From a bacterium (GTDB taxonomy: Bacteria > Acidobacteriota > Polarisedimenticolia > J045), in assembly GCA_021372775.1 (NCBI GenBank), contig JAJFTU010000472.1:1-36525 (forward strand): a DNA stretch of 36,525 nt, given 5' to 3'. Under the pieces are notes generated by a model. It made no database searches. It saw only the letters and a program-made list of their open reading frames with translations, and was not told the DNA's origin. This document shows, in pieces, positions 4,978-13,006 of the stretch (position 1 is its first letter; each line of letters begins with the position of its first letter). The translations under genes were made by a program, and so were the position numbers.

Positions 4978-7959
4978 GTGAGCGTTGCACGGGCATGGGC
5001 GTCGCGGATCGCGCGGAAGGCGCTCGCCTTCCGGCGTTCCCTCGCGTCGCGCCGCGCCCGGGCGGCGGTGGCCGCGTTGTCGTTCTGCGCCGCGGCGGCG
5101 GCGCCCTGCGTCGCGGCGGGGAAGCCGGTCGTCGTCGGCGTCGAGGTGGACAACCCCCCGCTGGAGTATCTGGACGCGCAGGGAAAGCCGGCGGGCTACG
5201 GCGTGGACGTCGCGCGGGCCGCGGCGGCGGCGATGCAGATGGACGTCGAGTTTCGGCCGGGACAGTGGGCCGATCTGCGGGAGCGGCTGAACAGCGGCGA
5301 GATCGACGCGCTGGTGGGGATGTACGACGCCCCGGAACGGCGGCGCGACGTGGAGTTCAGCCTTCCTTACGCCGTCATGACCTACGGCGTCTTCGTGCGG
5401 AAAGGGGCGGCGGAGATTTCCGGCGTGCCGGCCTTGGCCGGGAAGCACGTGCTGGTCGGCCGAAGCGAGATCATGGAGGAACAGCTCCGCGCCGGCGGAG
5501 TTCCGCTGACGCTCGAGGCGGCGGCGAGCGCGTCGGAGGCGCTGAGCCTGCTCGCCGGGGGCAAGGGGGACGCCGCGGCGGCGCCTCTGCTCTACGGGCG
5601 GTACCTCGAGCGGACGTACCACCTCGAGAACATCCGGCCGAGCGGGCCGCCGATCCGGAGCTTCGATCTCTGCTTCGCGGTGCGCAAGGGAAACCGGGAG
5701 CTGCGCGCGCGCTTCGACGAAGGGCTGAACCTGATCCGCGAAGACGGCAGTCTGCGGCGGATCTACGTGCAGTGGTTCGGAGTCATCGAAGAGGAGTCCC
5801 GGCTTTCGTGGGCCAAGGTGATCCGCGCCGCGCTGCTGGCGTTCGTTCCGCTCCTCGCGCTGCTCGGCGCCGCGGGACTCTGGTCGTGGTCGCTGCGGCG
5901 GCAGGTGCGGCGCAAGACCGACGATCTTTCGCGGGAACTCGATCAGCGGCGACGCACCGAGGGCCTGCTGGGACGGCGCCTGGCCGCCGAGAACCTGGCG
6001 ACGGCGATCTCCGCGCGGTTCGTCGGCGGGCGCGCCTCGGGGCTCGCGGAGTCGATGGCGCTGTCGATCCGCGACTTGGCGCGGCACCTCGGCGCGGACG
6101 GCGGGCGGCTCTTGGTGGCCGACGCCGGCGGGACGCTGCGGACCGAAGCCGTTTGGCGCGACGAGAGCTTCTCGTGGCGGCCGCTCGGGCCGAAGTTCGC
6201 GCCGAGCGACATGCCGTGGGCCTTCGCCCTGCTGGCCCGCGGCGAGATCGTCCACTTCGGACGGGAGGAGGACTTCCCGCCCGAGGCCGAGGCCGAACGG
6301 CGCGCGTGGACGGAGGGCGGGAGGCCGTCGGTCGTCGCCGCGCCGCTGGTTCGGGACGGCGAGATTTCGGGATGTCTGGAACTACTCTCGCGCGGCGCGC
6401 CGATCGAACTCGACGACGTCGGCGTCTGGCTGCTGCGGCTCTGCACGGAGGTCCTGGCGAGCGCCCACGACCGGCGGGTCGCCGCGGAACGGCTGGCCGC
6501 GGAGAAGGAGCGCCTGTCCGTGACGCTCCGCTCGATCGGCGAAGGGGTGCTGGCGGCGGACGCGGAAGGACGGGTCGTGCTCCTCAACCCGGCCGCGGAG
6601 CGGATCACCGGCCGGCGGCAGGAAGAGGCCGCCGGCAGGCCGTTGTCGGAGATCCTGCCGGGCGGCGCGGCCGAGCCGTCCGCGGCGACGAGCGACGCGC
6701 GCTTCGTCGGTCGGGACGGCGCGGAGCGGGTCGTCGAGCGCTCGACCGCGCCGATCGTCGATCCCGCGGGCGGCGAGGTCGGCCGGGTCGTCGTTCTGCG
6801 GGACGTCACGCTGCGGCGGCGGATGGAGAACGACCTGCAGCGCACGGCGAAGCTCGAGGCGCTCGGCGTGCTGGCCGGCGGGATCGCCCACGACTTCAAC
6901 AACATCCTCACCGGCATCCTCGGTTCGATTTCGGTGGCCCGGATGATGCTTCCCTCCGGCACGCCGGAAGAGGAGATTCTGCAGGAGGCGGAGAAGGCGG
7001 GGACGCGGGCCGTGGGGCTCGCGCGGCAGCTGCTGACCCTCTCCAAGGGGGGCGCGCCGATCCGGGTCGCGGCGCGGATCGCGGAGATCGTCGCCGACTC
7101 GGTCGGCTTCGCGCTGCGCGGTTCGCGGACGCGCTGCGTCCTCGAACTGCCGCCGAATCTCTGGGCCGGACGCGTGGACGCGGTGCAGTTCAGCCAGGTC
7201 GTGCAGAACCTCGTGATCAACGCCGCGCAGGCGATGCCCGACGGCGGCACGGTGACGATCAGCGCCCGCAACGTGGAGTACGACGGGCGCGGGGACTGGC
7301 CGCTTCCGGCGGGGCGCTACGTGGAGACGACGGTCGCGGACGAGGGGCCGGGGATTCCCCCCGAGACGCTGTCCCGGATCTTCGATCCGTTCTTCACGAC
7401 CAAGGCGACCGGCTCGGGGCTGGGGCTGACGACGGCCCACTCGATCATGGCGCGCCACGGCGGGCACGTCGCGGTGGCCTCGACGGTGGGGCGGGGCACG
7501 ACGTTCACGCTGCTGCTGCCGGCGACGGACGAGGCGCCTCCGGCGGCGGCGCCTCCGGCGGCGGTGCACGCCGGTCCGCGCGGGCGGCTGCTGCTGATGG
7601 ACGACGAGGAACTGGTCCGCGGCGCGGCGACGGCGCTGTTCGGCGCGTTCGGGTTCGCGGTCGAGACGGCCGAGGACGGCGACGTGGCGGTCGGGATGTT
7701 CCGGCGGGCCGCGGAGGAAGGCCGCCCGTTCGAACTCGTGGTGCTTGATTTGACGGTGCCGGGGCGGATGGGGGGCGAGGAGTGCCTTCGTCTGCTGCGG
7801 GGGATTTCTCCGAAGTTGCGGGCTGTCGTGTCGAGCGGCTACTCCGACGATCCGGTGATGGCCGACTTCCGCGGGCGCGGTTTCGACGGGGTGCTTCCGA
7901 AGCCGTATCGCGCGGAGGACGTCGAGGCGATGCTCGCGACGCTGGATGGTCGGTCGTAG
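4978..7959 (+). CDS. Hybrid sensor histidine kinase: SBP_bac_3 sensor, GAF, PAS, kinase, receiver
   Basis: This is a membrane two-component sensor with a built-in receiver, 993 aa, GTG start at 4978. In order it has a basic, Ala-rich signal/anchor (about 1-47), a periplasmic amino-acid-binding-protein-like domain (about 48-270; GVEVDNPPLEY and GYGVDVARAAAAA match family 3 solute-binding proteins), a membrane helix (about 280-302) and a GAF-like domain (about 345-505). A PAS domain follows (about 510-620), then HisKA with His638 in GIAHDFNN, and an ATPase domain with N box (Asn748), G1 DEGPGIP from 788, FDPFFTTK and G2 GSGLGL from 812. The C-terminal receiver has the acidic pair MDDEE, phospho-acceptor Asp924 and PKPY. 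The layout recalls BvgS-type kinases. No partner regulator is adjacent, so its output is unknown. The exact start is uncertain because no strong ribosome site is seen. The stop codon is the first part of a long inverted repeat. Confidence 0.93.
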   Translation: MSVARAWASRIARKALAFRRSLASRRARAAVAALSFCAAAAAPCVAAGKPVVVGVEVDNPPLEYLDAQGKPAGYGVDVARAAAAAMQMDVEFRPGQWADLRERLNSGEIDALVGMYDAPERRRDVEFSLPYAVMTYGVFVRKGAAEISGVPALAGKHVLVGRSEIMEEQLRAGGVPLTLEAAASASEALSLLAGGKGDAAAAPLLYGRYLERTYHLENIRPSGPPIRSFDLCFAVRKGNRELRARFDEGLNLIREDGSLRRIYVQWFGVIEEESRLSWAKVIRAALLAFVPLLALLGAAGLWSWSLRRQVRRKTDDLSRELDQRRRTEGLLGRRLAAENLATAISARFVGGRASGLAESMALSIRDLARHLGADGGRLLVADAGGTLRTEAVWRDESFSWRPLGPKFAPSDMPWAFALLARGEIVHFGREEDFPPEAEAERRAWTEGGRPSVVAAPLVRDGEISGCLELLSRGAPIELDDVGVWLLRLCTEVLASAHDRRVAAERLAAEKERLSVTLRSIGEGVLAADAEGRVVLLNPAAERITGRRQEEAAGRPLSEILPGGAAEPSAATSDARFVGRDGAERVVERSTAPIVDPAGGEVGRVVVLRDVTLRRRMENDLQRTAKLEALGVLAGGIAHDFNNILTGILGSISVARMMLPSGTPEEEILQEAEKAGTRAVGLARQLLTLSKGGAPIRVAARIAEIVADSVGFALRGSRTRCVLELPPNLWAGRVDAVQFSQVVQNLVINAAQAMPDGGTVTISARNVEYDGRGDWPLPAGRYVETTVADEGPGIPPETLSRIFDPFFTTKATGSGLGLTTAHSIMARHGGHVAVASTVGRGTTFTLLLPATDEAPPAAAPPAAVHAGPRGRLLLMDDEELVRGAATALFGAFGFAVETAEDGDVAVGMFRRAAEEGRPFELVVLDLTVPGRMGGEECLRLLRGISPKLRAVVSSGYSDDPVMADFRGRGFDGVLPKPYRAEDVEAMLATLDGRS

Positions 7960-8287
7960 GGGAGGCTGGCGCGTCCCGACGATCGGGTCCCCGCTCAGGC
8001 TTCCTCCGCGCCTGCCTCCCGACCTGATCTCCGCGAATCGGTTTTGATGTCGGCGGAAAAGCCCGCGTTCCTATCGGCGCGGTCGGTCGTCCGTTGCGGG
8101 GGGGGCCGTCGGAACCCTTGAGTTCCAGGGTCCGACGGCCCCCCCCGGCGACCGACCGACGGCGCCGCCGGGAACGGGGGCCTTTGCGCCGATCGCTACG
8201 GCGAATTCTCGAGGTCGACGTCGGGAGGCAGGCGCGGAGGGGGCTTGAGCGGGGATCCGATCGTCGGGACGCGCCAGCCTCCCCTAC
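7956..8287. repeat. 332-bp near-perfect palindrome between convergent genes
   Basis: This stretch holds no convincing gene. It is one long inverted repeat. Bases 7956-8023 pair with 8220-8287 over 68 positions: 64 Watson-Crick pairs plus four G-T pairs (7987, 7998, 8001, 8002), with no gaps. Further in, about 8050-8090 still pairs with about 8154-8193 at roughly 80%. The centre is a very stable hairpin: eight G at 8098-8105 with eight C at 8139-8146, then CCGTCGGA with TCCGACGG, one bulged A, a 4-bp stem and an 8-base loop. The outermost bases include TAG on both strands, and these serve as the stop codons of the sensor kinase (+) and of spoVR (-). There is no U tract, so it is not a standard terminator. 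It could be a MITE-like or repetitive palindromic unit, a bidirectional transcription barrier or a double-stranded RNA source. Confidence 0.92.
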
Positions 8288-9765
8288 GTGTCGATCGATT
8301 CGTCGGTCGGCTGCGAGCCGTCGTGGCCGAGACGGCGGGCGCGCCCCTCGACGACCGTCGAGATGTGCACGGGACGCTTCCAGAGCCGCGCCAGCGCGGC
8401 CAGCGTCTCCTTCGCCCAGTCCACCCGCAGGTCCACGCCGTCGTGGGTGTGCCGCAGATGCAGCTCCGAGCGGTTGCGGAAGTTCGCGTCCACGACGTCG
8501 ATCACCGGCGTGCCGGAGTTCGTCAGGCGGAAGAGAAGCGCCTTCTTGATCTCCTCGAACTCCCGCGACTCCACGACCCACTGGTCGCGCCGCCGGTCCT
8601 GCCCGAAGACGAAGAGCTTCTGGCGGCGGCAGAAGTCCTCCGTCAGGAACTCGTCGAGGAAGGTGAGGTCGCAGTGGAAGCGCCGCGCCTCGAAGATCTT
8701 CTCCCGCCCCTGGTCGGTCGGCCGGAACCAGGCGGCGCGCTCCCCCATGTCGTCGCACTCCTCCCACTCCCGCCCGAAGCGCCCCGTGTCCCAGCGCCAC
8801 TCGATGTCGCGGAACAGCTCCAGGCCGAGCTTGTACGGGTTGAGGCGCCCCGGCTGGACGGCCGTCGTGCCCGAGTGGTGGTCGGCGTAGTCCACGACCT
8901 CGGCGTCCTCGAGCAGCCCGCCGGAGAGCATCGTCGTGTGCCAGTAGCTGGCCCACCCCTCGTTCATGATCTTCGTCTTGCGCTGCGGCAGGAAGTAGTA
9001 CGCCTCCTCGCGCACGATCCCGAGGACGTCCCGCTCCCAGGTTTCGAGCGGCGCGTTGCGCAGCAGGAAGTCGAGGACGTCCCGCCGCGGGCTGGAGGGG
9101 AACCGCTTCTTCTTCCGCCGCTCCTCGACCAGCCGGACCCGCTCCCGCTCGAGGAACTCCGGCGGGTTGACGTACCGCTGCATGTAGTCCTTCGCCGGAA
9201 TCAGCCGCACGGCCGGCGGCGGCCCGGAGTCCTCCTCCTCCTCGACCGCCTCGCCGTCGCCGCGGAAGACCGACTCCGGATCGATCAGGTCCTCGAGCGC
9301 GAGGCAGGAGTCGACGAACCGCTCGACCGTCTCCACCCCCAGCCGGTCGCGGTAGCGGCGGATCCGCGTGGCGTGGTTGGCCATCGCGTCGATCATCTTG
9401 CGGTTGGTGTGGGCGAAGTGGACGTTGTTGCGGAAGAAGTCGGCGTGGCCGTAGACGTGGGCCATCACCAGCTTCTGGTCGAGGAGCGAGTTCCCCTCGA
9501 GCAGGTAGGCGTAGGTCGGGTCGTTGTTGATGACCATCTCGTAGATCTTGGAGAGGCCGTACTCGTACGACTTGGCCAGCTCCTCGAACTCCATCCCGAA
9601 GCGCCAGTGCGGATAGCGCACCGGAAAGCCGGTGTAGGCGGCGAGCTGGTTCATCTGCGCGTAGTCCACGACCTCGAAGACGACGGGGAAGTAGGTCAGC
9701 CCGCGGCGGCGGGCGTCGGCCTCGACCCGCTCCTGCATCTCGGAGAGCTTGCGGGGCAGCGGCAC
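8284..9765 (-). CDS. SpoVR family protein
   Basis: This is a 493-aa member of the SpoVR/YcgB family, close to the usual length. The family signature is clear: YPHWRFGMEFEELAKSYEYG, then MVINNDPTYAYLLEGNS and MAHVYGHADFFRNN. The biochemical role of the family is not settled. It is named for a Bacillus cortex defect, but it is widespread in non-sporulating bacteria, normally together with PrkA and YeaH. The start is a GTG at 9763-9765 with a strong GGGAGGTGAT ribosome site that overlaps the stop of the upstream yeaH-like gene, three bases away, so the two are coupled. It is the last gene of the prkA-yeaH-spoVR unit, and its TAG stop lies in the outer arm of the long palindrome. Confidence 0.95.
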   Translation of the reverse strand: MPLPRKLSEMQERVEADARRRGLTYFPVVFEVVDYAQMNQLAAYTGFPVRYPHWRFGMEFEELAKSYEYGLSKIYEMVINNDPTYAYLLEGNSLLDQKLVMAHVYGHADFFRNNVHFAHTNRKMIDAMANHATRIRRYRDRLGVETVERFVDSCLALEDLIDPESVFRGDGEAVEEEEDSGPPPAVRLIPAKDYMQRYVNPPEFLERERVRLVEERRKKKRFPSSPRRDVLDFLLRNAPLETWERDVLGIVREEAYYFLPQRKTKIMNEGWASYWHTTMLSGGLLEDAEVVDYADHHSGTTAVQPGRLNPYKLGLELFRDIEWRWDTGRFGREWEECDDMGERAAWFRPTDQGREKIFEARRFHCDLTFLDEFLTEDFCRRQKLFVFGQDRRRDQWVVESREFEEIKKALLFRLTNSGTPVIDVVDANFRNRSELHLRHTHDGVDLRVDWAKETLAALARLWKRPVHISTVVEGRARRLGHDGSQPTDESIDT

Positions 9766-9768
9766 GGA

Positions 9769-10878
9769 TCACCTCCCGGTGGCGAGGAACGACTTCACGG
9801 CCCGCGGGATGCCGTCCTTCCCCTCGATCGGCGTCAGGACGACCCGCTCGTCGTCGCCGAACGGCCGCCGCAGGTCCTGCAGGTACTGGCCCGAGCCGTA
9901 GGGGCTCTCCACCTGGCCGTAGGCGAAGAGGTTGAGCGTCGGCAGGATCTTGTCCCGCAGCATCTCCACGCAGCGCTCGGTGTCCCCCTGGGACCAGTTG
10001 TCGCCGTCGCTGAACTGGAAGAGGTAGAGGTTCCAGTCGGTCGGGTTGTACCGCTCCTCGACGATCTTCAGCGCCAGGCGGTAGGCGGAGGAGATGACGG
10101 TGCCGCCGCTCTCGCGGGTGCGGAAGAAGGTGTCGCGGTCCACCTCGTGCGCCTCGGCGTCGTGGACGATGTAGACGGTGGAGAGGCCGCGGTACTGCGA
10201 GGCGATCCAGGTGTCGAGCCAGAAGGAGGCGATCCGCACGACCTCCTTCTGCTCGTCCCCCATCGAGCCGGAAACGTCCATCACGTAGAAGATCGCCGCG
10301 TTGGCCTGCGGCGCCGGCAGGCGCTTGAAGGTGCGGTAGCGGCGGTCCTCGCGGATCGGCGCGATGACCGGCCGGTCGGGGTCGTAGACGCCGGAGGCGA
10401 CGAGCCGCTTCAGCGCCTGGCGGAAGGTGCGCTTGAAGTGGCGCAGCGACTCCGGCCCCGCGGTGGCGATGCCGGTGTAGCGCGTCGTCCGCGCCTCGAT
10501 GTTCTTCCGCCCCTTCGGCTGGATCCGCGGCAGGCCGAATTCCTCGCCGAGCAGCTCCGCCAGCTCGGCGGGGGTCATCTCGACCTCGAGGATGTGCTCG
10601 CCCGGCAGGTTTCCGGCCTGCCCCTTGCCGTCTCCCTCCTGTCCGGCCTGGCCGAGGACGTCGCCGACGTCGCCGTCCCCCTGGCCGACGTGCGACTGCC
10701 CGCCGGGGGAGTGGACGAAGTGCGGCAGGTCGACGCGGGGCAGGGGGATCGAGACGAGGTTCCGCCCCTTGCGGCCGATCATCTCGCCGCGGGTCATGAA
10801 GCGGCGCAGCTCCTCGCGCACGCGGCCGCGGACGATCTGCCGGAAACGCCCGACGTCGGTGTCGATGTTCAGCGCCAT
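9769..10878 (-). CDS. yeaH: DUF444 family protein (YeaH/YhbH) with von Willebrand A-like fold
   Basis: This is a 369-aa protein of the YeaH/YhbH (DUF444) family, starting at the ATG 10876-10878. An N-terminal basic region is followed by a Gly/Gln/Asp-rich linker (about 58-92) and a C-terminal half with a metal-ion-dependent adhesion motif DVSGSM at residues 201-206, then [15 protein letters not shown], a conserved family stretch. In E. coli the yeaG-yeaH pair takes part in stationary-phase and nitrogen-starvation responses, and YeaH is thought to work with the YeaG/PrkA kinase; the molecular function is not settled. The gene is 58 bases downstream of prkA and three bases upstream of spoVR, which supports a shared pathway. 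A small hairpin lies in the prkA-yeaH gap. Confidence 0.95.
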
Positions 10879-10919
10879 GCGCCGCGCCCTCGCCGCTCCG
10901 GCCGCGCGGACGGGCGGCC

Positions 10920-10935
10920 GGCGGAGCCTTCCGCC
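10920..10935 (-). other. Small hairpin between prkA and yeaH
   Basis: GGCGGA (10920-10925) and TCCGCC (10930-10935) form a 6-bp stem with a 4-base loop, just after the prkA stop. It could slow RNA decay or uncouple the expression of the two genes. It is short for such a GC-rich genome, so it may mean little. Confidence 0.3.
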
Positions 10936-10936
10936 T

Positions 10937-13006
<2,070 letters not shown>

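Follow-up and report, generated by a model that had tools for sequence, protein, structure and literature searches.

A near-perfect palindrome between two convergent genes of an Acidobacteriota genome is very probably a REPIN, an inverted pair of outsized GTAG-tagged REP units

The window, i.e. the whole 36,525-nt stretch of DNA analysed here, carries a 332-bp palindrome (7956-8287) where two genes converge, a hybrid histidine kinase gene on the + strand and spoVR on the - strand. The latter comes last in the cluster prkA - DUF444 (yeaH-like) - spoVR (8284-13006, - strand), and the kinase whose gene this cluster adjoins has a periplasmic solute-binding domain. Both flanking genes are full length. 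The sequence-only reading described the palindrome as filling the gap between them; it does lie between them, but overlaps each by its last codon, the two stop codons falling within the outermost GTAG/CTAC. The features of the locus are as follows.

4978..7959, + strand: hybrid histidine kinase gene (SBP_bac_3, PAS, HisKA, HATPase_c, Response_reg)
7956..8022, + strand: left REP unit, whole (unit alignment and covariance model, 83.8 bits)
7956-7959, + strand: left REP unit, GTAG foot
7957-7959, + strand: TAG of the left foot, stop codon of the histidine kinase gene
7960-7966/8014-8020, + strand: left REP unit, outer stem
7967/8013, + strand: left REP unit, T·T mismatch
7968-7973/8007-8012, + strand: left REP unit, inner stem
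7974-8006, + strand: left REP unit, 33-nt apical region
8021-8022, + strand: left REP unit, GA
8021..8222, no strand: spacer between left and right REP units, 202 nt (against 63-66 nt in 29 canonical pairs)
8049..8192 (limits approximate), no strand: second palindromic repeat in the spacer, with ends AAAGCCCGCGTTCC.../...GGAACGGGGGCCTTT
8097..8147, no strand: core hairpin of the second repeat, G8/C8 with apical ACCCTTGAGTTCCAGGGT
8221..8287, - strand: right REP unit, inverted (covariance model, 83.4 bits)
8287-8284, read on the - strand: right REP unit, GTAG foot
8284-8286, - strand: TAG of the right foot, stop codon of spoVR
8284..9765, - strand: spoVR (PF04293 and SpoVR_C)
9769-10878, - strand: DUF444 gene, upstream of spoVR
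10937-13006, - strand: prkA, upstream of the DUF444 gene

The arms (7956-8023 and 8220-8287) pair over 68 positions without gaps, as had been seen from the sequence alone; 64 of the 68 are Watson-Crick, and the other four (7987/8256, 7998/8245, 8001/8242 and 8002/8241) are all G·T on the + strand. Also borne out are the imperfect inner stem and the central hairpin (8097-8116/8128-8147), with its G8 run at 8098-8105 and C8 run at 8139-8146. The predicted RNA fold of the palindrome reaches -316.8 kcal/mol, against -186.6 ± 5.6 for shuffles (z = -23), and this is the sole inverted repeat of the window with at least 54 of 60 arm matches within 400 nt. Intrinsic terminators consist of a short GC-rich hairpin with a U tract downstream of it; there is no T run at either end of the palindrome, and the U tract of such a terminator is absent, as first stated. 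An Rfam search of the window gave no match above the gathering score.

The sequence of 7956-8287 matches many places in its own genome, a draft assembly of 494 contigs (labelled C below). Comparison of the copies reveals that what recurs is a unit of 65-67 nt, not the 332-bp palindrome as a whole. The unit has the consensus GTAG + GGGMGGC-T-GGCGCG, a 33-nt variable region, and CGCGCC-T-GCCKCCC + GA, usually GACG. With a covariance model built on the unit, the 3.67-Mb assembly gives 142 matches (~140 units), and an 18-base pattern matches 147 times, against 18 for the reversed pattern. The GTAG foot is exact in 102 of 117 good units, and the T·T mid-stem mismatch is kept in most, almost never being replaced by a pair. 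At stem position 8, which is A or C with T or G as its partner, the two sides are coupled in 114 of the 117 (Fisher p ~1e-29); each unit is therefore kept as a hairpin in its own right. On the opposite strand, units usually have CGTC at their inner end (e.g. 8021-8024 and 8219-8222); the other published REP superfamily has this as its tag, and a single unit thus bears both published tags. Two single 69-nt units (C293:765-833 and C27:32158-32226) have GTAG at both ends, CTAC replacing GACG; at the C293 unit the feet on either side apparently hold the ends of convergent genes, just as at 7956-8287.

Neighbouring units within 330 nt of each other form 36 inverted pairs with GTAG outward, two with GTAG inward and 11 tandem pairs. 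In 29 of the 36 outward pairs the spacer is 63-66 nt long and contains a short complementary stem. The pair at 7956-8287 has its two units at 94% identity, the top value among the pairs compared. Its palindrome is unusually long and perfect because the two units are near-identical and because a second palindromic repeat lies inside the spacer; the 332-bp palindrome is a composite of two repeat families, the REP pair and this second palindrome. The earlier reading held that nothing in the sequence identifies a known element, yet the palindrome is recognisable as REP/REPIN by its GTAG foot, the mismatch in mid-stem and the inverted pairing of its units. We consider it very probable that the palindrome is a REPIN, i.e. 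two GTAG-tagged REP units set head to head with GTAG outward, and one copy of the ~140-unit family.

The second family has a G7-G8/C7-C8 stem and a conserved apex ACCCTWGARYTCMAGGGT, in ~12 copies. Besides 7956-8287, it lies between two REP units on contig C358, and probably on C278 also. Other copies are at C33:2357-2457, C274:6394-6691, C217:193-446 and C404:120-209 and on C242, C77, C13 and C247, several of the family (those on C33, C274, C217 and C404 and others) being outside REP pairs. Many contigs of the draft end at or near these repeats, above all at the G7-G8 hairpin; the frequent position of the second repeat at contig ends suggests that it breaks assembly. This is also what might recommend an assembly artefact, a fold-back chimera or collapsed repeat, which had been named as grounds for discarding the palindrome. 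Against it, four positions distinguish the two arms, neither flanking gene is truncated, the structure recurs in ~140 units spread over many contigs, and C358 (probably C278 too) carries the same composite; an artefact is thus scarcely credible.

Using gene calls from a simple codon-based finder, we placed elements of the family 26 times between convergent genes, 21 times between co-directional and three times between divergent ones. The bias is towards gene 3' ends, beside co-directional genes as well. Among 55 genes running towards an outer foot, 15 have the foot TAG as their exact stop, while TAG accounts for just 2 of the 40 other stops. Of 16 coding frames that stay open into a foot, 15 are in the TAG frame (frame 0).

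Another explanation, offered in part by the earlier reading, is that the long duplex between the convergent genes is itself selected, as a bidirectional terminator, a transcription barrier or a source of dsRNA. The strong predicted fold, the 26:3 convergent bias and the G·T nature (on the + strand) of all four arm mismatches at 7956-8287 are in keeping with this. We compared the folds in an alignment of the 29 canonical pairs, with 500 shuffles. A fold of two hairpins with a spacer stem pairs 97.5% of cells (99.2-99.7% for the within-unit stem cells), with covariation above that of all 500 shuffles; the arm-to-arm long fold pairs 78.9%, with covariation below that of every shuffle. At the stem columns that vary, pairing reaches 28% of cells in the long fold and 100% in separate hairpins. 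Moreover, the two units have different stem alleles in 26 of the 36 outward pairs. The conserved structure of the family is the hairpin within each unit, not the arm-to-arm duplex, which was ruled out as such by covariation; together with the mixed alleles, covariation below the shuffles makes the long duplex look, for the family, like a by-product of inverted pairing. As the U tract is also missing, and the positional bias is one towards gene 3' ends with co-directional neighbours included, selection for the long duplex is most improbable, and the idea of a barrier or dsRNA source loses its footing, arm-to-arm pairing not being conserved across the family. A side effect of 7956-8287 on the two flanking mRNAs is possible.

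The earlier proposal of a MITE-like or REP-like mobile palindrome fares well in its second half, with GTAG-tagged units in REPIN arrangement and ~140 of them genome-wide. A MITE of a classical DDE-type insertion sequence, whose transposase would cut the ~70-bp arms as terminal inverted repeats, would share with these elements the inverted-repeat ends, a length of 195-330 bp and the many copies. We nevertheless judge it very unlikely. Target-site duplications beside the copies do not exceed what random re-pairing of flanks gives (smallest p 0.08); each arm forms a hairpin of its own, with covariation inside the unit and alleles that differ from one arm to the other; clusters of other kinds, head-tail among them, occur as well; and the units have the GTAG foot. 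The REP family is presumably mobile.

Relatives gave little. The unit covariance model produced a single marginal match (E 0.003), none convincing, in 11 other genomes of the family; 60 relatives, belonging to other genera, gave short marginal pieces at most, and neither a plasmid collection nor a GTDB-220 pattern scan (where the genome's own record may be left out) gave any match. In other genera of the family the tails of spoVR orthologues vary in length, some being a few residues longer, and no comparable palindrome lies downstream of orthologous spoVR. An ordinary gap in close relatives had been put forward as counting against the palindrome; such a gap is found at these orthologues, yet insertion predicts it equally. 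The ~140-copy GTAG-tagged REP family is previously undescribed and lineage-specific.

Searches for a Y1 transposase or RAYT with the PF01797 and NF047646 profiles were negative in the assembly and positive in control genomes, PF01797 being positive in 13 of the 41 genomes searched. The usual association of REP with RAYT is therefore not seen here. GTAG hairpins beside Y1_Tnp genes of relatives included no convincing REPtron. In a fragmented assembly a RAYT gene with REPs on either side could be lost, and the transposase locus is missing in some other species with GTAG repeats (PMC3733652).

The GTAG-tagged REP superfamily (Di Nocera et al. 2013, PMC3733652) takes in the REPs of E. coli and Pseudomonas and the SMAGs of S. 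maltophilia. Our units have in common with it the 5' GTAG foot; a hairpin with alternative complementary stem residues; head-head dimers, conserved spacers with complementary ends, and heterodimers; and location downstream of genes, the foot TAG serving as stop of the flanking ORF. They differ in size, 65-67 nt with a 33-nt apical region against 20-40 nt with loops of at most 27, and in usually carrying CGTC on the opposite strand at the other end and hence both published tags. Because the size criterion describes known families and not mechanism, we take ours as a size variant. The absence of target-site duplication, the covariation within units and the mosaic and tandem clusters have likewise been described for GTAG REPs or REPINs (PMC3733652, PMC3116915, PMC8266576). 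The host is also outside the phyla that the survey gives for GTAG repeats; its entries for Acidobacteriota are transposases with terminal inverted repeats, GTAG repeats not being among them (PMC3733652). With REPINs (Bertels and Rainey 2011, PMC3116915) the family shares inverted doublets at fixed spacing, tandem clusters and singlets beside doublets; the REPs of P. fluorescens SBW25 stand 71 and 110 bp apart, those here 63-66 nt, and no RAYT gene was found in this assembly. As in the E. coli REP recognized by TnpA-REP (PMC8266576), GTAG is joined to an imperfect stem with a conserved central mismatch, here a single T·T instead of an AA/GC bulge; the T·T recalls the bulge that the E. coli REP transposase needs in the stem (PMC8266576). 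The combination of a REP pair with another palindrome is known from the GTAG-15 dimers of Anabaena variabilis (PMC3733652), although those sit inside longer palindromes, whereas at 7956-8287 the second palindrome is inside the spacer and also occurs elsewhere alone.

Under the REPIN interpretation, the units would have spread as non-autonomous mini-transposons, each folding alone as single-stranded DNA into a GTAG guide and a mismatched stem. The folded units would be handled by a HUH tyrosine transposase of RAYT type, the enzyme being either absent from the genome or unassembled. Insertions may persist at gene 3' ends where the foot TAG makes an in-frame stop, out-of-frame cases being lost. 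In mRNA, each of the two convergent genes has the hairpin immediately behind its stop codon; there, as E. coli REPs suggest by analogy, it may shield the 3' end, impede read-through and perhaps slow ribosomes at termination. E. coli REPs at most 15 nt from the stop codon are reported to reduce translation, according to a passage citing that work in PMC12306157.

The palindrome adds an example to a known kind of bacterial mini-transposon and is not a new kind of structure; its main departures from published REPs are unit size and the missing transposase. A bolder version seems unlikely: an orphan, outsized REPIN family, double-tagged with GTAG/CGTC, that expanded in an Acidobacteriota lineage without RAYT, is moved by an unrecognised or outside-supplied enzyme and is able to carry a palindrome in its spacer. 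What the locus adds is an extension of GTAG-tagged REP/REPIN elements to an Acidobacteriota genome, with a new and outsized family; a clean measure of the frequency with which a dispersed repeat forms its neighbours' stop codon; and, through the natural allele mix in 36 pairs, a way to ask which fold is conserved, the answer being two separate hairpins in place of a single long one. That distinction has been drawn in connection with REPIN transposition (PMC3116915).

We finally note some peculiarities of the arrangement of units: (i) The allele difference between left and right units (26 of 36 pairs) is commoner than independent draws would give (Fisher p 0.017). (ii) C426:4903-5381, C405:5804-6304 and C12:3322-3877 are tandem or mosaic arrays of REP pairs that include flanking DNA, like BIME/REPIN clusters, and a further mosaic or tandem cluster is found at C346.
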